Source of the DNA: a virus
Reading direction: 5' to 3' (one strand)
Virus record (IMG/VR): IMGVR_UViG_3300032223_001393
Span: 1 to 20,470 of that record
DNA: 20,470 nucleotides
Below are positions 850 to 18,241 of this stretch, piece by piece. Positions within the stretch are counted from its first letter, which is position 1. Each line of letters starts with the position of its first letter. The notes under the pieces are model-generated. The model saw nothing but the letters and a program-made list of their open reading frames with translations, was not told the origin of the DNA and did not search any database. The position numbers were made by a program, and so were the translations under genes.

Positions 850-1704
850 ATGGATTACTATTCAACTTTAGGATTACAAAGAGGCGCATCTGACGCCGAT
901 ATCAAAAAGGCTTATCGCACTATGGCGATGAAGCACCATCCGGATCGCGGTGGCGACGAAATAAAATTCAAAGAGATTTCACAGGCCTACGAATTTTTAA
1001 CCGATCCGCAAAAAAAACAGATGATCGATTCTGGTATTGATCCAAATAGCCCTAATCAAGGGTTTGGTGGATTTAATCATCATCAGGGCGGAAATCCTTT
1101 TGAATTCCATTTTGGTGCAGGCGATGTAAATGATTTCTTTAACAACTTTGGGTTTGGTGGATTTGGTCAACCAAGGAGCAACAGAAACCGCAGCCTTAAT
1201 ATTCAAATTGAAATCACCCTTGAGGATGTATTGCGAGGCAAGGATATAAATGCTGAAGTAGGAATCCCCGGCGGCCCGAAAAAAATGGTCAACATTTCAA
1301 TACCTCCGGGCATTGAAACTGGGCAACAGATTAGATACGACGGAATGGGAGATAGTTCTATTCCCCATATGCGCCCAGGAGATCTAATTGTAAATATCAT
1401 CGTCAGACCACACCCTGTGTTTAGACGTGAAGGTATATCACTGATATATGATCATCATATTGATGTATGGGATGCCGTGCTAGGTTCAGGCATTGACATC
1501 AGAACTCTAGATAATAAGCAACTAAAAATTACTGTTCCTCCCGGAACACAACCAGATACAGTATTAAGCTGTAGGGGTGAAGGGTTACCCGATGTACGTT
1601 CGAGACAACGAGGAAATCTATTGATTCGTATCAAAGTAGATGTTCCACGCAATCTTACACCAGAACAATTAGCAAAGGTACAAAAATTAAAAAATGAGCT
1701 TTGA
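850..1704 (+). CDS. dnaJ: DnaJ/CbpA-type J-domain co-chaperone
   Basis: This 284-residue protein is a type B (CbpA-like) Hsp40 co-chaperone that would stimulate the host Hsp70 (DnaK) ATPase. The J domain fills roughly residues 1-66 with the essential HPD at 30-32. A Gly/Phe-rich linker with Asn/Asp-Phe-Phe elements spans about 70-110, and a two-part C-terminal substrate-binding region runs from about 115 to the end. The CxxCxGxG zinc repeats of true DnaJ are absent, which accounts for the shorter length. The start fits the family exactly (MDYYSTLGL). It has almost no 5' leader if P1 is used, and only a weak GAG upstream. It overlaps the next gene by 11 nt and heads a proteostasis operon with a deformylase and a ClpA-type unfoldase. 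Host-like chaperone genes occur in other T4-like phages. Confidence 0.93.
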   Translation: MDYYSTLGLQRGASDADIKKAYRTMAMKHHPDRGGDEIKFKEISQAYEFLTDPQKKQMIDSGIDPNSPNQGFGGFNHHQGGNPFEFHFGAGDVNDFFNNFGFGGFGQPRSNRNRSLNIQIEITLEDVLRGKDINAEVGIPGGPKKMVNISIPPGIETGQQIRYDGMGDSSIPHMRPGDLIVNIIVRPHPVFRREGISLIYDHHIDVWDAVLGSGIDIRTLDNKQLKITVPPGTQPDTVLSCRGEGLPDVRSRQRGNLLIRIKVDVPRNLTPEQLAKVQKLKNEL

Positions 1705-2185
1705 ACTAGGACCGCACGACAGTCTAACGCAGGTTAGTACTCCTTGGGATTTCAGCACAGATGGTGATGCACAACAGCTTGAAAGAGATATGATTGATTT
1801 TATGGTATCCAGTGGAGGCATTGGTCTAGCAGCAAATCAGATCGGTATTACCAAACGAGTGTTTGTAATGGGAAGTAATACTATTCCAGATTTTCCTGCA
1901 CCGTTCGCAGTGTTTAATCCTGTGATCAAAGAATCTAGCACTAACCTAGTATTAGATAGAGAAGGTTGCCTCAGCTATCCTGATTTGTTCTTAATGGTGA
2001 AACGTCCGGACTGGATTATCGCCGAGTATCAAGACAGCGAAGGCAACATCAAAGAAATACGGGTAGACGGATATCTAGGTAAGTGTTTTCAGCACGAATT
2101 AGATCATCTAGATGGTATATGTTTTGTTGACAAGGTCAGCAGAATGAAGTTACAATTAGCTATGCAAAGACTAAGGAAAAAGTAA
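1694..2185 (+). CDS. def: Peptide deformylase
   Basis: This 163-residue metalloenzyme would remove the N-terminal formyl group from nascent proteins. All three signature motifs are intact: GGIGLAANQ at 41-49, EGCLS at 90-94 with metal ligand C92, and QHELDH at 133-138 with two His ligands and the catalytic Glu. The length matches compact bacterial and phage deformylases. The gene starts inside the end of dnaJ (11-nt overlap), which suggests translational coupling; an AAAGG at 1676-1680 lies somewhat far upstream. Phage deformylases, known from marine cyanophages, are thought to keep protein maturation going, especially for rapidly made host or phage proteins. No key residue is missing, so activity is likely. 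Confidence 0.95.
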   Translation: MSFELGPHDSLTQVSTPWDFSTDGDAQQLERDMIDFMVSSGGIGLAANQIGITKRVFVMGSNTIPDFPAPFAVFNPVIKESSTNLVLDREGCLSYPDLFLMVKRPDWIIAEYQDSEGNIKEIRVDGYLGKCFQHELDHLDGICFVDKVSRMKLQLAMQRLRKK

Positions 2186-2190
2186 ATTAT

Positions 2191-4527
2191 ATGATCGAAC
2201 CAAGCCAAACTCTACAAATTATATTTGAAAACTCAGTGGCTGTTGCTAAAGAGCTCGGGCACGAATATGTTACAATAGAACATATTGTTTTTGGTATAAT
2301 GAACGACCCAGAATCATATGCTATGATTGATGGGTTTGGTGGCGATGCGAATTTCATCAAAACTAATCTTGATCATTACCTAAGAAATAATCTTAATGAT
2401 ATCAAGACCGATGACCCAAATCAACGTCCAAGAAAAACCAACAGTGTTGAGCGTGTACTAAATCGCTGCTTTACACAGGTGTTGTTTAGTGGACGTCAGC
2501 GTATGGAAATTGCTGATGTTATTATCAGCGTCCTTTCAGAGAAGAATAGTTTCGGCTTTTATTTCTTACAAAAAGGCGGTGTAACCAAAGAGAAGTTTGT
2601 TAAGTTTTTCCAAGAAAATATTGTAGTCCAAGAAGACGAGGATGAAACCCACCCTGTGACAACCCCTAACCAAGTGGATAAAATCCTCAACACATATTGT
2701 ACTAACCTTAGCCTTAAGGCCAAACAAAAGACCATCGATCCAGTTATTGGCCGTGATGAAGAGCTAGAAAAGACACAGCTTGTGTTAGCTCGCCGTAATA
2801 AGTGTAACGTGCTTATGGTTGGTGATCCAGGTGTAGGTAAGACTGCTATTGCCGAGGGTATGGCACGTAAGATCTTTGAAAAGAAAGTTCCTAAGTTTAT
2901 TCAAGACCACACTGTTTATTCACTTGACATACCTGCACTGCTTGCCGGTAGTAAGTATCGCGGTGACTTTGAAGAACGCATTAAGGCTGTGCTTACAGCA
3001 CTTGAACGCAAGGGTAAGATTATTTTGTTTATCGATGAAGCACATATGATGAACGGAGCAGGATCTGCTAGCCAGAACAGCAATGACCTTGCTAATATTC
3101 TTAAGCCAGTACTTACCAAAGGTGTTATTAAATTAATCGCTTCAACTACTTGGGAAGAATATCGCAAGTACTTTGAAAAGGATCGTGCGCTTATGCGTCG
3201 ATTCCAACGCATCACTATCGACGAGCCGACTCCAGAATTGACCGTTAAGATTATTAAAGGTATTCGCAAGTACTACGAAAAACATCACAATGTTAAAATC
3301 AGTGATGCAGCGATTGATCAGGCAGTTAAATTGTCTATCAAATATATGGCAGACAAGAAACTTCCAGATAAAGCCATCGACATCATTGACTGTGCCTGTG
3401 CTCGTTACAAAATCAAAGACGATGACGGTATGGAAGGTATACAACAGATTGTTGATATTGAGCAGGTTACTTACGAACTCAGTAAGATGATTAATATGCC
3501 GTTGGAGATTGTTGCTCAAAAAGAAAGCAAGAATCTTGCAGATCTTGAAACAGGTATGAAAGCAGCGGTCTACGGACAAGAAACTGCGGTTAACACATTG
3601 TTGGATAAAATCTTTGTAGCACAAGCTGGTATGAAGCATCCAAACAAGCCAATCGGTAGTTTCCTATTAATAGGACCAACTGGTACAGGTAAAACAGAAA
3701 CAGCTCGTGTGCTCGCTGATAAGATGGGTATGCAACTCGTACGTTTTGATATGAGTGAATATCAAGAGAAACACAGTGTAGCACGGTTAATCGGTGCGCC
3801 TCCGGGTTATGTCGGCTTTGAAGATAACGCTGGTCAATTGATCACTAAGTTACAAGAAGCTCCTAACTGTATTTTATTGTTAGACGAAATCGAAAAAGCT
3901 CACCCTGATGTTTCAAATATCTTGTTACAGTTTATGGACAACGGATTTGTAACCGGAAGCAACGGAAAACAAGCAGACGGTCGTAACTGTATTTTACTTA
4001 TGACTTCAAACTTAGGTGCTCGTGATAACGAAAATAACAGCATTGGCTTCGGTGAGATTGCTAAAAATGATGAAGATGACAAAGCGGTTAAGAAATTCTT
4101 TGCTCCTGAATTCCGCAATCGTTTAGATGCTATTGTCAAGTTCAGTAAACTAGAAAATTCTGTAGTTATTCAAATTGTCAAGAAGTTTATTGCAGAACTT
4201 AATAACCAGCTCAAAGACAAGAACATTGAGATCGTTGCCAACGCAGAAACAGTACGTTGGTTAGCTGACAAAGGCCACGACAGTAAAATGGGTGCTCGTC
4301 CATTGGCGAGGCTCATCGATACAGAGATTAAATCTCCATTAAGTCGTCGAGTATTATTTGGAGATCTAGTAGATGGTGGTCGTGTAAATGTTACTATCGA
4401 GGATGACAAGCCCGCATTTACTGTTACAGAATTACCAAAGCCGTTAAGTAAAGAAGAAAGAAAGGCCGCAAAATTATTAGCATTAGACAAGGAGACGGCA
4501 AATGATGGAGTTGACCAAGACGACTAG
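2191..4527 (+). CDS. clpA: ClpA-type AAA+ unfoldase with ClpP-docking loop
   Basis: This 778-residue protein is full length for ClpA. A Clp N-domain-like helical region covers about 1-145. The first AAA+ module has Walker A GDPGVGKT at 211-218 and Walker B ILFIDEAH at 278-285. The second has Walker A GPTGTGKT at 495-502, Walker B LLLDEIEKA at 562-570, FRNRLD with an arginine finger near 643, and sensor 2 GARPLAR at 701-707. There is no long ClpB-type middle coiled coil between the modules. The tripeptide IGF at 618-620 sits where E. coli ClpA has IGL, the loop that docks on ClpP. So the protein probably feeds substrates to the host protease rather than only disaggregating them. An AAGGAAAA at 2174-2181 serves as the ribosome-binding site. 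A short acidic tail, unlike typical ClpA, closes the protein. Confidence 0.93.
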   Translation: MIEPSQTLQIIFENSVAVAKELGHEYVTIEHIVFGIMNDPESYAMIDGFGGDANFIKTNLDHYLRNNLNDIKTDDPNQRPRKTNSVERVLNRCFTQVLFSGRQRMEIADVIISVLSEKNSFGFYFLQKGGVTKEKFVKFFQENIVVQEDEDETHPVTTPNQVDKILNTYCTNLSLKAKQKTIDPVIGRDEELEKTQLVLARRNKCNVLMVGDPGVGKTAIAEGMARKIFEKKVPKFIQDHTVYSLDIPALLAGSKYRGDFEERIKAVLTALERKGKIILFIDEAHMMNGAGSASQNSNDLANILKPVLTKGVIKLIASTTWEEYRKYFEKDRALMRRFQRITIDEPTPELTVKIIKGIRKYYEKHHNVKISDAAIDQAVKLSIKYMADKKLPDKAIDIIDCACARYKIKDDDGMEGIQQIVDIEQVTYELSKMINMPLEIVAQKESKNLADLETGMKAAVYGQETAVNTLLDKIFVAQAGMKHPNKPIGSFLLIGPTGTGKTETARVLADKMGMQLVRFDMSEYQEKHSVARLIGAPPGYVGFEDNAGQLITKLQEAPNCILLLDEIEKAHPDVSNILLQFMDNGFVTGSNGKQADGRNCILLMTSNLGARDNENNSIGFGEIAKNDEDDKAVKKFFAPEFRNRLDAIVKFSKLENSVVIQIVKKFIAELNNQLKDKNIEIVANAETVRWLADKGHDSKMGARPLARLIDTEIKSPLSRRVLFGDLVDGGRVNVTIEDDKPAFTVTELPKPLSKEERKAAKLLALDKETANDGVDQDD

Positions 4528-8218: not shown

Positions 8219-8439
8219 TGGACGAACTTGCTCAGATTAAACGTCTTGCTGGACTAACAGAATTTAAAGGTCTACAGCCCTACGGTGGTAGCAATATCAG
8301 TCTTACTGGTATGGAAAAACAAACATTAGAAAAACAACATAACATTAAACCAGGAACACCTGAATGGTTTAAATTATGGTTTAGTAAGCCTTACTTAACA
8401 GGTGAGAAGCCGGTAGGAAATGACGAATGGTTGAGATAA
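8218..8439 (+). CDS. Small conserved phage protein
   Basis: This 73-residue product starts at a TAATG overlap with the upstream gene. Residues 1-15 ([15 protein letters not shown]) form a short amphipathic helix ending in an LTE tripeptide, which could be another prohead-protease site. The rest is polar, with a [11 protein letters not shown] segment near 45-55 and a C-terminal GNDEWLR. No catalytic motif, signal peptide or membrane segment is seen. It overlaps the Fe-S carrier gene by 13 nt and contains that gene's ribosome-binding site. Function unknown. Confidence 0.7.
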
Positions 8440-8753
8440 GCGAATCAGCAAAAGCAAAGATTATCGATCTTCTATCAGAAGAAAACAATCCTAATCTTTC
8501 CTTGCGTACATTTGTACAAGGTGGAGGCTGTAGCGGTTTCAGCTATGGCTTTACATTTGATGAAGAACAAAATGAGGATGATTTTGAAGTTCCATTAACA
8601 GATAAATGGAAAGTATTGATTGATGCAATGAGTATGCAGTATCTGCAAGGTGCAGAAATAGATTACAAAGATGATCTAACTGGCAGTCAGTTTACTATCA
8701 AAAACCCTAACGCTCAATCAACTTGTGGATGTGGGAGCAGCTTTTCAATATGA
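8427..8753 (+). CDS. iscA: A-type iron-sulfur cluster carrier (IscA/ErpA/HesB family)
   Basis: This 108-residue protein matches the A-type carrier family in length and order. The three cluster ligands are C35 in GGGCSGFSY and C100 and C102 in CGCGSSF near the end. Such proteins receive and deliver [2Fe-2S] or [4Fe-4S] clusters to apo-enzymes. The start at 8427 has AGGA at 8415-8418, 8 nt upstream. The normal family N-terminus ([13 protein letters not shown]) lacks the leader seen on neighbouring genes. Phage copies are known from aquatic T4-like viruses and are usually seen as auxiliary metabolic genes. A role in supplying Fe-S clusters during infection or in virion assembly is inference. I cannot separate IscA, ErpA and SufA from sequence alone. 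Confidence 0.92.
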
Positions 8754-11058: not shown

Positions 11059-11319
11059 ATGGCTAAAATGTACGGACCGGAAGAAAAAGCAAAACTAGAA
11101 AGATTAATCAACGAAGGTGGTAATGTACTTCGTGAAGTTGAAGATCTACAAGAAGGTCTAAAAGAAACTGTCAAAGCAGTTGCAGAAGAATTACAAATTA
11201 AACCAAGCATTATCAACAAAGCCATTCGTATCGCACACAAAGATAACTGGAAGTCGCACGAAGAAGAGTGGGACGAAATTGAAATGATCCTCGGCGTTAC
11301 CAAACGCTTGCCAGAATGA
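11059..11319 (+). CDS. dsbA: DsbA-like dsDNA-binding protein (late transcription regulator)
   Basis: This 86-residue, all-helical, charged protein resembles T4 DsbA, a small dsDNA-binding protein that binds near late promoters. The shared features are a helix-rich layout of about 85-90 residues, an ELxIKPxxxNKAIRIAHKDN segment (about 44-62) like the T4 region ending in YHKDN, and an acidic C-terminal helix. I recall close relatives annotated as DsbA in T4-like cyanophages. It has its own sigma70-type promoter and a strong AGGAG, so it is probably made early, before late genes are switched on. It overlaps the next gene by ATGA. The alternative is another small nucleoid-type protein. Confidence 0.7.
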   Translation: MAKMYGPEEKAKLERLINEGGNVLREVEDLQEGLKETVKAVAEELQIKPSIINKAIRIAHKDNWKSHEEEWDEIEMILGVTKRLPE

Positions 11320-11609
11320 TAGATGCAGTTTTTGGTCCAACTATACAATGGATAAGAGATGACTATAAGTCTCATCCAGCTCGCTTTATTATCGAGCTCT
11401 TGGCTTGGGCTGTGTCTATTGGTTGCTCGATTACAATGGCGGTCACTGTACCCAATCCTCCGCTGCTACACCTTTATCCTGTTTGGATTTCTGGTTGTGC
11501 AATGTACGCTTGGGCTGCTTACACTCGCAAATCATTTGGAATGTTGGCTAACTATATCTTGCTGACATCTATTGACACCTTTGGCCTTATTAGGATGTTG
11601 ATCAATTGA
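11316..11609 (+). CDS. Small conserved phage membrane protein
   Basis: This 97-residue protein has a charged N-terminus (1-22) and about three hydrophobic helices: roughly 24-44, 50-68 and 75-94. The segment AVTVPNPPLLHLYPVW connects the first two. It has no signal peptide and would lie in the inner membrane. I recognise the family as common in T4-like aquatic phages but know of no function. It is coupled to dsbA by ATGA and to the oxygenase-like gene by a TTGA overlap. It could modify the host membrane or exclude other phages; neither is supported by sequence. Confidence 0.78.
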   Translation: MIDAVFGPTIQWIRDDYKSHPARFIIELLAWAVSIGCSITMAVTVPNPPLLHLYPVWISGCAMYAWAAYTRKSFGMLANYILLTSIDTFGLIRMLIN

Positions 11610-12181: not shown

Positions 12182-12741
12182 TGACAAGACTTGTTGCGTT
12201 TGGATGCTCCTACACCTACGGAAAAGATCTGGAAGATCCCGAAACTGAATCTTGGCCTGCGATACTTGCAGCCTTACTCGAAACAGAGCACACAAATCAA
12301 TCTGTAGTCGGTGCAGGAAATTTGGAAATCCTTTGGAATATTTTACATTTTGATTTCAGGCCAACAGATAGGGTAGTTATTATGTGGAGTCACTTTACCC
12401 GGGACCACATATTTCATCCAGATGGGCATCGTAGAATACGCAGTAGAGATGATGACGATCTTACTAGGCATTGGGTGTTGACACACGATGATTATGATGC
12501 TAATATACGTAACTGGTTGAGTATTCATCACGCAGATTTGTTTGTAAAACAATTTGCTGAGGTATATCACTTGTTTGGTGGAACATATCATTTGGAAAGA
12601 ACTGCCAATCCTAAGTGTATACAAATGGATAATATCATTGATGTAGCGTTTGAAAATATTGATTTTGCTAAAGATTTAGCGCACCCTGGTCCAGAAAGTC
12701 ATAGACTTTTAGCAGAAAAGATATATAAGATTATACAGTAA
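12181..12741 (+). CDS. SGNH/GDSL hydrolase-like protein
   Basis: This 186-residue protein has the SGNH-hydrolase layout. Block I is FGCSYTYG at 7-14 with nucleophile S10, block II has G44/G46 in GAGNLE, and the C-terminal DLAH at 165-168 supplies the Asp and His. Block III, normally GxND, appears here as MWSH (68-71), so the oxyanion Asn is not conserved in the usual way. Family members act as esterases on acyl groups of lipids or sugars; the substrate is unknown. It begins at a TAATG overlap with the oxygenase-like gene. Similar proteins are present in T4-like aquatic phages. Loss of hydrolase activity cannot be excluded. Confidence 0.75.
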   Translation: MTRLVAFGCSYTYGKDLEDPETESWPAILAALLETEHTNQSVVGAGNLEILWNILHFDFRPTDRVVIMWSHFTRDHIFHPDGHRRIRSRDDDDLTRHWVLTHDDYDANIRNWLSIHHADLFVKQFAEVYHLFGGTYHLERTANPKCIQMDNIIDVAFENIDFAKDLAHPGPESHRLLAEKIYKIIQ

Positions 12742-12747
12742 GGTTAA

Positions 12748-12763
12748 GCGAGCCATAAATCGC
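12748..12763 (+). promoter_or_regulatory. Polymerase leader hairpin 1
   Basis: GCGA (12748-12751) pairs with TCGC (12760-12763) around the 8-nt loop GCCATAAA. The loop differs at one base from hairpin 2 downstream, and the stem differs by a compensatory C-G to T-A change. It may be an upstream copy of a gp43 translational operator. Confidence 0.6.
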
Positions 12764-12774
12764 ACAGTTGGTAT

Positions 12775-12794
12775 TTGTGAGCCACAAATCACAA
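12775..12794 (+). promoter_or_regulatory. Polymerase leader hairpin 2 abutting the ribosome-binding site
   Basis: TTGTGA (12775-12780) pairs with TCACAA (12789-12794) around the 8-nt loop GCCACAAA. The stem ends directly against GGAG (12795-12798), the ribosome-binding site of the polymerase gene at 12805. T4 gp43 represses its own translation by binding a leader hairpin with a 5-bp stem and an 8-nt loop just upstream of the ribosome-binding site, so position and loop size match a gp43 operator. Confidence 0.65.
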
Positions 12795-12804
12795 GGAGAA
12801 AAAT

Positions 12805-15474
12805 ATGAGTTATGTAGACGCTTTCTATGATAGAGAGCAAGATGTTATTCGTGTCGTTGAGCGTGATACCAAAGGCAATCGCCAATTTAAAGAGTATCCA
12901 GCAAGGCACATTTTTTATCACCAAGACCCCAAGGGCAAATATTATTCAATCAAAGGTGAACCGCTATCACGAGTTACCTGTAAGAATATCAAAGAGCTTC
13001 GTAAAGAGCTCGCAATCCACAGCAATAAAAAACTATATGAAAGCGATATCAATCCTATCTATCGCTGCTTAGAAGACAATTATCTCAATGTCGACGCACC
13101 AAAACTAAACGTAGCATTCTGGGATATTGAGGTAGACTTTGATCCGGAGCGTGGCTATGCATCACCTGACGATGCATTTATGCCAATCACTGCTATCGCT
13201 GTTCACCTACAGTGGTTAGACACTATGGTATGTTTGGCAATACCACCAAAGACGCTGTCGATGGAGGAAGCTACTAAGCAGGTTGCAGAATTTCCAAACA
13301 CTATGTTATTTGACAATGAAGCAGATATGCTTGACACATTCTTAGATCTTATCAAAGATGCAGATGTGTTGAGTGGATGGAACAGCGAAGGCTTTGATAT
13401 GCCCTATACTGTTAATCGCATCATTAAAGTACTGAGCAAAGAAGATACACGCAGACTTTGTTTGTTTAATCAGTTTCCGAAGAAACGCGAGTATGAAAAA
13501 TACGGGAAGCAAGCTGTTACCTACGACTTAATTGGTCGTGTTCATTTAGACTCACTTGAACTTTATAGAAAGTACACATATGAAGAACGTCACACGTATC
13601 GATTGGATGCTATTGGAGAAATGGAAATCGGAGAAAACAAAACAGTCTACGAAGGTACATTGGACCAACTTTACAACAACGACTTCCGCAAGTTCATCGA
13701 ATATAACAGGCAGGATTGTGCCTTGCTCGATAAACTGGATAAAAAGCTCAAGTTTCTAGACCTAGCAAATACACTGGCACACGAATGTACAGTATTGCTA
13801 CAGACCACAATGGGTGCGGTTGCTGTTACTGAACAGGCTATTATCAACGAAGCCCACAAGCGTGGAATGATTGTTCCTAACCGTGTGCATCGCGAACCTG
13901 GTGCAGATACAGCAGCCGCGGGTGCGTATGTTGCCTATCCAAAGAAAGGTATCCACGAATGGATTGGTTCTCTAGATATCAATTCACTGTATCCGAGTGC
14001 GATTCGTGCATTGAATATGGGACCTGAAACAATCGTAGGACAACTTCGTCAAGATGGTACTAAAGCATATATCGAAGCAGAAATTGCCAAAGGCAAATCA
14101 TTTGCCTCTGCTTGGGAAGGTATGTTTGGTAGCGTTGAATACTCAAGTGTGATGAACAGAGAAGTAGGACGTGAAATCACCATTGACTGGGAAGATGGTG
14201 GTAGTGATACTCTGTCAGCATCTCAGGTCTATGAATTGATATTTGATAGTAACCAGCCTTGGATGTTGTCAGCTAACGGTACTATCTTTACCTACGACAA
14301 AGAAGGTATCATTCCAGGACTACTAAAACGCTGGTATGCAGAACGTAAAGAGATGCAGGCCAAACTAAAAGACTCTATTAAAGCAGGTAATAAAATTGAA
14401 GAAGAATATTGGGACAAACGACAGTTGGTTAAAAAGATTAACCTTAATAGCTTATACGGTGCTATTCTTAACCCTGGTTGCAGGTTCTTTGATAATCGTA
14501 TTGGCCAATCCACAACTCTTACCGGCAGAGCCATTGCTCGCCATATGGCCGGGAAGGTAAATGAAATCGTAACAGGAACAAATGATCACATAGGTAAAGC
14601 AATTATCTACGGTGACACAGACTCTTGTTATTTTTCAGCTTACACAACTCTTAAGAAAGATATCGAAAAAGGATTAATTCCTTGGAGCAAGGAAAACGTA
14701 GTTGAACTTTATGATACCATAGGAGAAGAAGTAAATGGCACATTCCCCAAGTTTATGCAAGATGCATTCCACTGTCCAAGGACACGAGGAGAGGTTATCA
14801 AAGCCGGTCGCGAGATTGTTGCAAGCAAAGGACTCTTTATCACAAAGAAACGATATGCAGTCCTCTACTACGACAAAGAAGGTAAACGAGCGGACATCGA
14901 TGGAAAACCAGGCAAAATTAAGGCTATGGGGCTTGACCTCAAGCGGTCAGATACCCCGGTTGTTATCCAAGACTTCCTCAGCGAAGTTCTAACTAAAGTT
15001 CTAAACGGTGTTCCTAAAGAAGAAGTGCTACAGTATATCACTGACTTCCGCACAGAGTTTAAAACACGTCCGGGATGGGAGAAAGGATCACCTAAACGTG
15101 CTAACAACATTACCGAGTATCAGGCCAAGGAAAAGAAAGCTGGTAAAACAAATATGCCAGGGCACGTTCGTGCTAGTATCAACTGGAATACATTGAAGCG
15201 TATGTTCGACGACAAGTACTCTATGCAGATTGTTGACGGAGCAAAGGTTATCGTTTGCAAACTCAAAGACAATCCAATGGCGCATACTTCAGTGGCTTAT
15301 CCAGTTGATGAACTTAGACTACCTCAATGGTTTAAAGACTTGCCTTTTGACGATGCTGAAATGGAAACCACAGTCATCGATGAAAAGCTAGGAAACTTGA
15401 TTGGTGTTTTGGAATGGGACATCAGCTCAACTCGCAGTGATAATACATTCGGTAAATTGTTTGATTTTGAATAA
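12805..15474 (+). CDS. 43: T4-like family B DNA polymerase
   Basis: This 889-residue replicative polymerase is close to T4 gp43 (898) in length. The 3'-5' exonuclease motifs are FWDIEV (D107, E109), GWNSEGFDMPY (D198) and YNRQDC (D304). The polymerase motifs are SLDINSLYPS (389-398, with D391), KKINLNSLYG (543-552), YGDTDS (602-607, with D604 and D606) and KKRY in the thumb-proximal region. The C-terminus ends KLFDFE, similar to the clamp-binding tail of T4-type polymerases. All catalytic residues are present, so it should both polymerise and proofread. A GGAG ribosome-binding site at 12795-12798 sits just after a hairpin resembling the gp43 autoregulatory operator. The sliding clamp follows 57 nt downstream under its own promoter. 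Confidence 0.98.
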   Translation: MSYVDAFYDREQDVIRVVERDTKGNRQFKEYPARHIFYHQDPKGKYYSIKGEPLSRVTCKNIKELRKELAIHSNKKLYESDINPIYRCLEDNYLNVDAPKLNVAFWDIEVDFDPERGYASPDDAFMPITAIAVHLQWLDTMVCLAIPPKTLSMEEATKQVAEFPNTMLFDNEADMLDTFLDLIKDADVLSGWNSEGFDMPYTVNRIIKVLSKEDTRRLCLFNQFPKKREYEKYGKQAVTYDLIGRVHLDSLELYRKYTYEERHTYRLDAIGEMEIGENKTVYEGTLDQLYNNDFRKFIEYNRQDCALLDKLDKKLKFLDLANTLAHECTVLLQTTMGAVAVTEQAIINEAHKRGMIVPNRVHREPGADTAAAGAYVAYPKKGIHEWIGSLDINSLYPSAIRALNMGPETIVGQLRQDGTKAYIEAEIAKGKSFASAWEGMFGSVEYSSVMNREVGREITIDWEDGGSDTLSASQVYELIFDSNQPWMLSANGTIFTYDKEGIIPGLLKRWYAERKEMQAKLKDSIKAGNKIEEEYWDKRQLVKKINLNSLYGAILNPGCRFFDNRIGQSTTLTGRAIARHMAGKVNEIVTGTNDHIGKAIIYGDTDSCYFSAYTTLKKDIEKGLIPWSKENVVELYDTIGEEVNGTFPKFMQDAFHCPRTRGEVIKAGREIVASKGLFITKKRYAVLYYDKEGKRADIDGKPGKIKAMGLDLKRSDTPVVIQDFLSEVLTKVLNGVPKEEVLQYITDFRTEFKTRPGWEKGSPKRANNITEYQAKEKKAGKTNMPGHVRASINWNTLKRMFDDKYSMQIVDGAKVIVCKLKDNPMAHTSVAYPVDELRLPQWFKDLPFDDAEMETTVIDEKLGNLIGVLEWDISSTRSDNTFGKLFDFE

Positions 15475-16269: not shown

Positions 16270-16635
16270 ATGATCAAAGGTTTACAAGGCGTAACAGGCA
16301 TTACGGTTAGTGGCGGGAATACCTCCCTACCGTATATTGGCCCAAACTCAAGCAACCCAATGACGGGTATGGTACGTATCCACAACACTGAACTAGAAGT
16401 GTTTAATGGTAATAGCTGGCAACTGCTACCCAGCAGTTATGCCACTGTAAGTCTAGATCAAGATGTCCTGGACATTATACAATGGGCACGTAAAAAACGC
16501 AATGAGGAATTGGCTTGGGAATCTTTGGCAAAAGACAATCAGGCTGTTAAAATAGCATTAGAGAACTATCGTCAGGCAGAACAACAACTTAAAATTACAA
16601 AAAATTTAGCGAGAGAATATGAAACAACCAGTTAA
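16270..16635 (+). CDS. Conserved phage protein with C-terminal coiled coil
   Basis: The product is 121 residues. The first 45 are Gly/Ser/Pro-rich (IKGLQGVTGITVSGGNTS), followed by a short beta region (MVRIHNTELEVFNGNSWQLL), and then from about 57 a long charged helix (LDIIQWARKKRNEELAWESL to the end) that may be a coiled coil. I recall relatives in many T4-like aquatic phages, where the gene follows replication or structural genes, but no function is established to my knowledge. The VFNGNSW segment resembles short repeats in tail-fibre and phage surface proteins, which hints at a virion role. It starts 3 nt after the clamp stop, with only a weak ribosome-binding site. Confidence 0.75.
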   Translation: MIKGLQGVTGITVSGGNTSLPYIGPNSSNPMTGMVRIHNTELEVFNGNSWQLLPSSYATVSLDQDVLDIIQWARKKRNEELAWESLAKDNQAVKIALENYRQAEQQLKITKNLAREYETTS

Positions 16636-18241
16636 CCTAACACCATTACAGAAAGACTACGCAGTATATCTACCTGCGATTAGTTCTTTCTATAGCACCT
16701 ATGTAGCAAAACAACGACTAGAAGAATTTGTTCCTAAAGATCGTATTCCAGCTGGATTTGATCGTGGCATCGAAGGTATGAACTTCTTAAATCCAGAAGA
16801 AGGATACTTTACCTACAAGTATGCACTATATTCAGCAGGTCACGCACAGCTTGACTTAGAAAAGTCAATGGAACAAGAGTCTATGATCCAACAACGTGAT
16901 CGTGGAAATACAATGATCTTAGGTGACTCAGGTGGATACCAGATTGGTAAAGGTGTTCTTAAGTTTGATTGGTTGAACTTCGAAGGTGCAGAAGCTAATA
17001 AGACTCGTAAAAAGATTCTTGAATGGTTAGAGTTAACTGCTGATTGGTCAATGATGCTTGACGTTCCTACTTGGGCCTGTGACCATATTCATAGTCCAAA
17101 GACTGGATTAAAAACATTTGAAGACTGTTTAGATAAGACAAAGTTCAATAACAAATACTTCTTAGAAAATCGCTTAGGTCAAACTAAGTGGTTAAACGTT
17201 CTACAAGGCAGCGACTGGGATACCGCTGAGAAGTGGTATCGTGGTGTAGTAGAGTTCAGTGATCCTGTTGTATGGGGTGATAAGGCTGCAGAAGGTTGGG
17301 CTTTTGGTGGTGCTAATATGTGTAAGATGGATATCACGCTCAAACGTCTAATGACTATGCGTGACGAAGGTATGCTTACAGGTAAGAACTGGATTCACTT
17401 CTTGGGCACAGCACAGTTAGATTGGAGTTGTTACTTAACACAGATACAACGTCAGATCCGTGAACATATCAATCCGGAACTAACAATTAGTTTTGACTGC
17501 GCAAGTCCGTTTATTGCTACAGCTCACGGACTTGTCTACACAAACGCACAACACACTAACAAGCGTTGGTCAGTTATTATGGATAAGGCTCCAGATAACA
17601 AAGCACTATCAGGACGTCAAGATATTCCGTTTCCGTTTGAAAGCGAGTTTGCTTCTAGACTAACAATGGGTGATATCGCATATTACAACTACGGTGTTCG
17701 TAAGACAGACGAAGAACTAGGCGATGTTAAGTTTAATCATTTAAATCCAGAACATTATCATCAAGTTCCGAAACTCAACAAACTAGGCAAGATTCCAAAC
17801 AAAACAAGTTGGGATAGTTTCAGCTACGCATTAATGATGGGTCATAATGTTGAATGTCATATCAAAGCAGTTCAACGTGCTCAACAGTTAATGGACATCG
17901 AATGTGCTCGCTTTAAGCCAGACTGGAGAATGAAGAGCATCGAAGGTAAGAAAGAAATCGAATACAGCGACTGGGTTCCGAACAAAGTATTGTATTTCTC
18001 TACTTTCATCGAAGAATTGTTTAATACTAAAACAAAAGCAGAAGCATTTGAAATGATTGAGACTGCTGCACAGTTCTTGAAATCATTAGAAGGTGCTCGA
18101 CTGCAAGGCGGCCCTGCTGCTAACGAATTTAATAATTTGTTTACTGTAGAAGATGTAGCACCAGTAAGAGTTGGTCCAGATGGCCTACCGCTATTTGATC
18201 AACAAGACGACGATGAGTTAAACAGTTTAGTTGTAGAATAA
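16619..18241 (+). CDS. dpdA: TGT/DpdA-like 7-deazaguanine transglycosylase
   Basis: This 540-residue protein has the core of the tRNA-guanine transglycosylase superfamily. DSGGYQ at 103-108 matches the TGT (S/T)DSGGFQ motif, D148 in LDVPTW and the VLQGS at 194-198 match the base-recognition region, FGGAN at 229-233 matches the GG binding loop, LGTAQLD follows at 262-268, and FDCASP at 292-297 supplies the nucleophile Asp (D293, equivalent to TGT D280). The CxC..C..H zinc site of tRNA TGT is not seen, and the C-terminal 200 residues differ. Phage proteins of this kind, called DpdA, replace guanine in DNA with 7-deazaguanine derivatives and so block host restriction. It overlaps the previous gene by 17 nt. 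A tRNA substrate is the main alternative. No preQ0 synthesis genes are in this window. Confidence 0.82.
   Translation: MKQPVNLTPLQKDYAVYLPAISSFYSTYVAKQRLEEFVPKDRIPAGFDRGIEGMNFLNPEEGYFTYKYALYSAGHAQLDLEKSMEQESMIQQRDRGNTMILGDSGGYQIGKGVLKFDWLNFEGAEANKTRKKILEWLELTADWSMMLDVPTWACDHIHSPKTGLKTFEDCLDKTKFNNKYFLENRLGQTKWLNVLQGSDWDTAEKWYRGVVEFSDPVVWGDKAAEGWAFGGANMCKMDITLKRLMTMRDEGMLTGKNWIHFLGTAQLDWSCYLTQIQRQIREHINPELTISFDCASPFIATAHGLVYTNAQHTNKRWSVIMDKAPDNKALSGRQDIPFPFESEFASRLTMGDIAYYNYGVRKTDEELGDVKFNHLNPEHYHQVPKLNKLGKIPNKTSWDSFSYALMMGHNVECHIKAVQRAQQLMDIECARFKPDWRMKSIEGKKEIEYSDWVPNKVLYFSTFIEELFNTKTKAEAFEMIETAAQFLKSLEGARLQGGPAANEFNNLFTVEDVAPVRVGPDGLPLFDQQDDDELNSLVVE

Follow-up and report, generated by a model that had tools for sequence, protein, structure and literature searches.

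Predicted tandem pseudoknots at the ribosome-binding site of a T4-type DNA polymerase gene in uncultured phages: a candidate translational operator

We have analysed the leader of a DNA polymerase gene in a viral stretch of 20,470 nucleotides (IMG/VR virus record IMGVR_UViG_3300032223_001393, positions 1 to 20,470, hereafter "the window"), where two hairpins follow one another in front of the gene. Comparison with related leaders indicates that each hairpin is an H-type pseudoknot, because a conserved upstream GGY pairs with the GCC at the start of the hairpin loop, and that the leader carries two such pseudoknots in tandem. The element lies at the ribosome-binding site, occurs once per record in nine large viral records, is linked almost exclusively to the polymerase gene and, to judge from the sequences collected here, is common to hundreds of uncultured phages; it is probably a switch that limits the amount of the enzyme.

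Both modules are built in the same order, from 5' to 3': the first strand of helix S1 (S1a, GGY), loop L1 (mostly 2-3 nucleotides, range 1-4), the first strand of the stem S2 (S2a), the second strand of S1 (S1b, GCC), loop L3 with the sequence NNAA(A/G), and the second strand of the stem (S2b). The S2 stem has 4-6 base pairs and is spanned by L1, while the five-base L3 spans S1. The features of the window leader are the following:

12736 to 12799, plus strand: tandem leader element, as covered by covariance model R1
12742 to 12763, plus strand: upstream pseudoknot, module 1 (S1a GGT 12742-12744, L1 TAA, S2a GCGA 12748-12751, S1b GCC 12752-12754, L3 ATAAA 12755-12759, S2b TCGC 12760-12763), predicted from sequence, S2 covariation and S1 pair counts
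12770 to 12793, plus strand: pseudoknot next to the Shine-Dalgarno (SD) sequence, module 2 (S1a GGT 12770-12772, L1 ATT, S2a TGTGA 12776-12780, S1b GCC 12781-12783, L3 ACAAA 12784-12788, S2b TCACA 12789-12793), predicted from sequence, S2 and S1 covariation and covariance model R2
12793 to 12798, plus strand: SD sequence AAGGAG, from sequence
12805 to 15474, plus strand: target gene, a T4/RB69-type family B DNA polymerase (gp43-like) of 889 amino acids

The polymerase, whose ATG start codon is at 12805, matches the Pfam families DNA_pol_B (4.3e-34) and exo1 (5.4e-18) and the RB69 polymerase structures (E 1e-63), and the element sits in the leader of this T4-type family B gene, at its ribosome-binding site. 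Module 1 starts immediately 3' of the stop codon of the upstream open reading frame (TAA, 12739-12741). At the other end, the SD sequence overlaps module 2, sharing one base with its 3' end, or two if a sixth stem pair forms; the second of the two elements with a shared loop does abut the ribosome-binding site, as had been claimed from the sequence alone.

The two hairpins, GCGA-GCCATAAA-TCGC at 12748-12763 and GTGA-GCCACAAA-TCAC at 12777-12792, have the sequences that this sequence-only reading gave them, with the addition that the stem of the second one is longer (TGTGA/TCACA, 12776-12780 with 12789-12793). Taken by itself, the window is moderately unusual: among 400 dinucleotide shuffles, 9 contain a comparable pair of hairpins somewhere, and the leader has an ordinary fold energy (z -0.03). 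Conservation, and not the window alone, decides that the hairpins are to be taken as real, since close relatives carry both of them: in a set of polymerase loci selected by protein similarity alone, without use of the leader sequence (85-91% identical), both hairpins are found directly 5' of the SD sequence in 80 of 80 cases. The sequence-only reading had offered itself for refutation by this very comparison and has survived it.

Its claim that the hairpins covary is borne out as well. In an alignment of 49 diverse tandem leaders (A1, from which leaders with a one-base bulge in the first hairpin, e.g. GGCGTG-GCCATAAA-C-CGC, are excluded), two-sided compensatory changes are found at all ten stem pairs; 94.1% of the cells are paired, against 69.3% after shuffling and at most 36.9% with the partners slid, and the covariation score reaches 0.746, compared with 0.273 and at most 0.105, respectively. 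RNAalifold finds both stems unprompted. Model R1 scores the window at 76.2 bits (E 1.5e-21), the window itself being among the 49 sequences from which the model was built, and model R2 recovers module 2 of the window with E 1.3e-6. An alternative stem over module 2 (ATTTGTG-AGC-CACAAAT) needs the window's own NN bases, is absent from the relatives and has been rejected.

The description as plain hairpins is where the sequence-only reading falls short: its stems stand, but the structure was incomplete, as each hairpin is predicted to become a pseudoknot through the pairing of the upstream GGY, located 1-4 nucleotides 5' of each stem, with the first three loop bases. The evidence for helix S1 comes from the correspondence between the two sides: loops that start with GCC go with an upstream GGY, and loops that start with GCT go with an upstream AGY, with no credible exception. 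The varying pair is G:C in 137 and A:U in 24 of the unique SD-proximal modules, with one discordant module (L251), which proved to be a parsing error of the script at a locus without a leader; among the 61 unique upstream modules it is G:C in 57 and A:U in four, none being discordant. In gap-free alignments S1 is paired in 100% of the cells, the outer pair of module 2 being G:C in 32 and A:U in 13 of 45 and 5/5 S2 pairs of that module having two-sided changes, and the loop variants ACC and ACT (L314, L407) still pair. Independent double changes have occurred in module 1 of L068, in module 1 of the marine group L464/L466/L469 and in the large GCT clade, with a further one between the sisters L413 (GCT) and L414 (GCC) within that clade (join support 100). 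Two interleaved helices, S1 and S2, are therefore each backed by covariation. The invariance of the L3 AA is less independent evidence than the helices, being partly imposed by the search patterns, although the AA is also seen in the 80 protein-selected loci.

The same loci bear on which GGY pairs with which loop. In L068, L464, L466 and L469, where module 1 has AGT/GCT and module 2 has GGT/GCC, the varying pair is Watson-Crick only within a module, and pairing across modules, of the GGY of one with the GCC of the other, has been rejected on these four. A fourth S1 pair shows no excess above shuffles in the GCC modules. Replacement upstream modules, described below, have their own version of the helix: an NGTC pairs with a GACN', with A:T, G:C and T:A at the outer (fourth) pair, and this pseudoknot pairing is found in 9/9 of them and matched by 6 of 5000 shuffles.

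Several variants of the leader can be distinguished. Type A, to which the window belongs, carries a GCC module at both positions. In type B leaders (about 65-69% polymerase identity) there is one GCC module, whose 3' stem strand often includes the SD sequence (CCG-GCCATAAA-CGG-AG), and upstream of it another kind of hairpin, GCTC-ACGTTAC-GAGC; type C leaders (about 62-66% identity) combine an AGY/GCT module with a different upstream hairpin or pseudoknot. In a more distant GCT group the letters of the upstream module differ, and some of the loci retain its architecture. The upstream hairpin of the type B leaders (L258, L270 and L295-L374), GAGTC-GCTC-ACGTTAC-GAGC-ATGAATC, shows conservation and covariation of its own, and its loops (ACGTTAC, CGTAA) have no consistent S1 pseudoknot partner. 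Across these types, the aligned leaders indicate that the SD-proximal module is the constant part and that the upstream module is exchangeable.

The constancy extends to placement: of 160 unique SD-proximal modules, 159 end 0-6 nucleotides before the SD sequence or overlap it by 1-4, and the median distance from the end of the module to the start codon is 11 nucleotides. At four loci (L139, L378, L381, L393) a small Cys-rich open reading frame stands between the leader and the polymerase gene; the stop of this frame and the start of the polymerase gene overlap in the sequence ATGA, and the leader keeps its place 5' of the small frame's SD sequence, an arrangement that fits translational control relayed by coupling. 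The small frame encodes about 50 amino acids with the motif CxxC..C..C, and lies at about 870-1090 in L139.

A pattern scan of IMG/VR by motif only, in which the neighbouring gene was ignored, returned 119 stretches: 99 lie within 40 nucleotides of a polymerase start, two more belong to polymerase operons (L123, where the polymerase starts at the contig end, and L139, with the small frame in between), and the remaining 18, in which no such hairpin pair can be seen by eye, are read as chance. In each of the nine viral records (186-353 kb), models R1 and R2 detect a single strong tandem site, located before the polymerase, and the next-best matches have E 0.03 or worse; the best weak extra match (L212) has no upstream GGY and is treated as chance. 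With a single element per record, these nine do not have the pattern of a regulon of several genes.

The presence of the SD-proximal module follows the polymerase: it is found in 210/210 loci at 70% identity to the window or above, in 149/248 at 60-70% and in 1/19 below 60%, loci that were partly recruited by the motif scan, the protein-only set at 85-91% having it in 80/80. A FastTree phylogeny of 155 polymerases places the element bearers in a single clade of 146 rows (support 98), within which the element is repeatedly absent. Isolate phages whose polymerases are nearest (Sinorhizobium phage Phosso, at 50%, Atu_ph07, GAP32, PA5oct and others) do not carry the element; a blastn search of the leader against 50,697 phage records gave no match, and no relative of the polymerase was found in bacterial genome contigs. 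At leaderless loci (L228, L402, L241 and others) the polymerase gene frequently begins within the stop codon of the gene before it, which at several of them is homologous, by eye, to window 11316-11609; there appears to have been a switch from leader control to translational coupling.

How might such an element work? We give about even odds to a cis-acting translational operator for the polymerase whose most likely ligand is the polymerase itself, as in T4. The polymerase is the likeliest ligand because the target is of the T4 type, because there is a single target per record and because of the precedent of T4 gp43, a repressor of its own mRNA that acts through a hairpin in the leader (PMC3014915). 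Since module 2 lies at or over the SD sequence, its occupation would block initiation. In the mechanism that we infer, free polymerase in excess of the replication forks would bind the modules; a protein clamping module 2, which touches or overlaps the SD sequence, would exclude the ribosome, and the bound polymerase would repress its own translation, much as T4 gp43 does through a single hairpin. The upstream module would add a second site for the polymerase, possibly allowing cooperative binding.

Several observations weigh against this autoregulatory operator. The S1 helix has only three pairs, two of which hardly vary, and it is supported by about four independent double changes at the remaining pair and by the replacement modules. 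The element is missing from 99 of the 248 loci at 60-70% identity, and autoregulation by it would therefore be dispensable in the wider family; some T4-related polymerases are without autoregulation (PMC3014915).

The same operator could instead be bound by another RNA-binding protein of phage or host, such as a replisome partner or a RegA-like repressor. The sequence itself names no ligand, T4 possesses further translational repressors (PMC3014915), and structure-specific, A-rich pseudoknots would suit many RNA-binding proteins; a general repressor, however, would be expected before several genes, and in the nine large records only the polymerase has the element. RegA (PF01818) was not found in these records, with a T4 control at 2e-75, though the records may be incomplete or RegA diverged. 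We consider another protein ligand rather unlikely.

A tandem riboswitch, with two minimal H-type pseudoknots sensing a small molecule (e.g. a nucleotide) and module 2 controlling the SD sequence, would account for the nearly fixed S1 and A positions next to freely varying stems, and its size, H-type topology, invariant loop 3 AA and SD adjacency would be like those of preQ1-I and SAM-II. Tandem copies occur among riboswitches. Within the searched records, however, the element is linked to one gene and to none for biosynthesis or transport; this and the lack of any Rfam match even at E 5 make a riboswitch improbable, and a riboswitch class that serves a viral replication enzyme alone and ties the synthesis of phage DNA polymerase to a ligand resembling a nucleotide has a slim chance of being correct.

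We regard as similarly improbable a constitutive element of the mRNA without ligand, in which the pseudoknots would protect a processed 5' end or form a ribosome standby site. Stable structures close to the SD sequence may stabilise mRNA or aid initiation, and the position of module 1 directly after the upstream stop in the window could follow from termination or processing; yet neither the fixed loop GCC and AA beside freely varying stem letters nor the restriction to a single gene is readily explained in this way. Inverted repeats could also function in DNA, as protein-binding sites or in the initiation of replication, but this is very improbable, given that the strand is constant, that the SD distance is nearly fixed, that the element remains with the ribosome-binding site when a small frame is inserted, and that the S1 pairing, with a U-G pair among its pairs, can be understood only for a single strand.

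Elsewhere in the window, the phage encodes an A-type carrier of iron-sulphur clusters at 8427-8753 (Fe-S_biosyn, PF01521, E 5.6e-19). The stretch at 1694-4527 encodes a peptide deformylase (PF01327, E 8.5e-41) and, after it, a ClpB/ClpA-like AAA+ protein; the frame that precedes these two (850-1704) is DnaJ-like by eye. A 540-amino-acid frame at 16619-18241 resembles, by eye, queuine tRNA-ribosyltransferase/DpdA; it has no Pfam match and its identity is unconfirmed.

Among known systems, compact pseudoknots with an A-rich third loop that are adjacent to or overlap the SD sequence are familiar from the preQ1-I and SAM-II riboswitches, from which the present element differs in its single target gene, its S1 of 3 base pairs and its lack of an Rfam match: no Rfam family (preQ1, SAM or others) reaches its gathering score, the sub-threshold chance matches having E 5.7 to 8. 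A 2010 survey of 104 RNA motifs does not mention DNA polymerase, and no match for the element was found in the searched literature, most subscription papers, including the main RB69 operator paper, lying outside the search. The gene 32 element of T4, T2 and RB69 has in common with it an H-type RNA pseudoknot and serves the translational autocontrol of a replication protein; it consists, however, of a single pseudoknot lying 5' of an A+U-rich stretch that gp32 covers, in contrast to the two small tandem ones that abut the polymerase SD sequence here, and it has been considered possibly the sole viral pseudoknot in translational autoregulation (PMC3014915).

The closest parallel in position is the gene 43 operator of T4 and RB69, with which the element shares a homologous polymerase leader, a hairpin with an 8-nucleotide loop near the ribosome-binding site and, as proposed here, the polymerase as ligand. 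The T4 operator is one hairpin, AGCCT-AATAACTC-GGGCT, in contrast to the two pseudoknot modules with loop GCCNNAAA; the loop does differ from that of T4, as the sequence-only reading held. There is no evidence for a pseudoknot in the T4 gene 43 leader (PMC3014915), and that leader has no match to model R2. The loop cores -UAAC- of T4 and RB69 and -UAAA- of RB49 are not present in GCCNNAAA with its variable NN; UAAA occurs by chance in some loops here and is not conserved as such. We regard the element as a putative analogue at the same position rather than as a demonstrated member of the T4 operator family. T4 and RB69 are the phages in which feedback control of the polymerase has been elucidated, and a structure of a gp43-RNA complex is still wanted (PMC3014915); with its two sites, natural compensatory variants, module swaps and absences, the element makes the ligand, cooperativity and the co-evolution of polymerase and operator testable in vitro.
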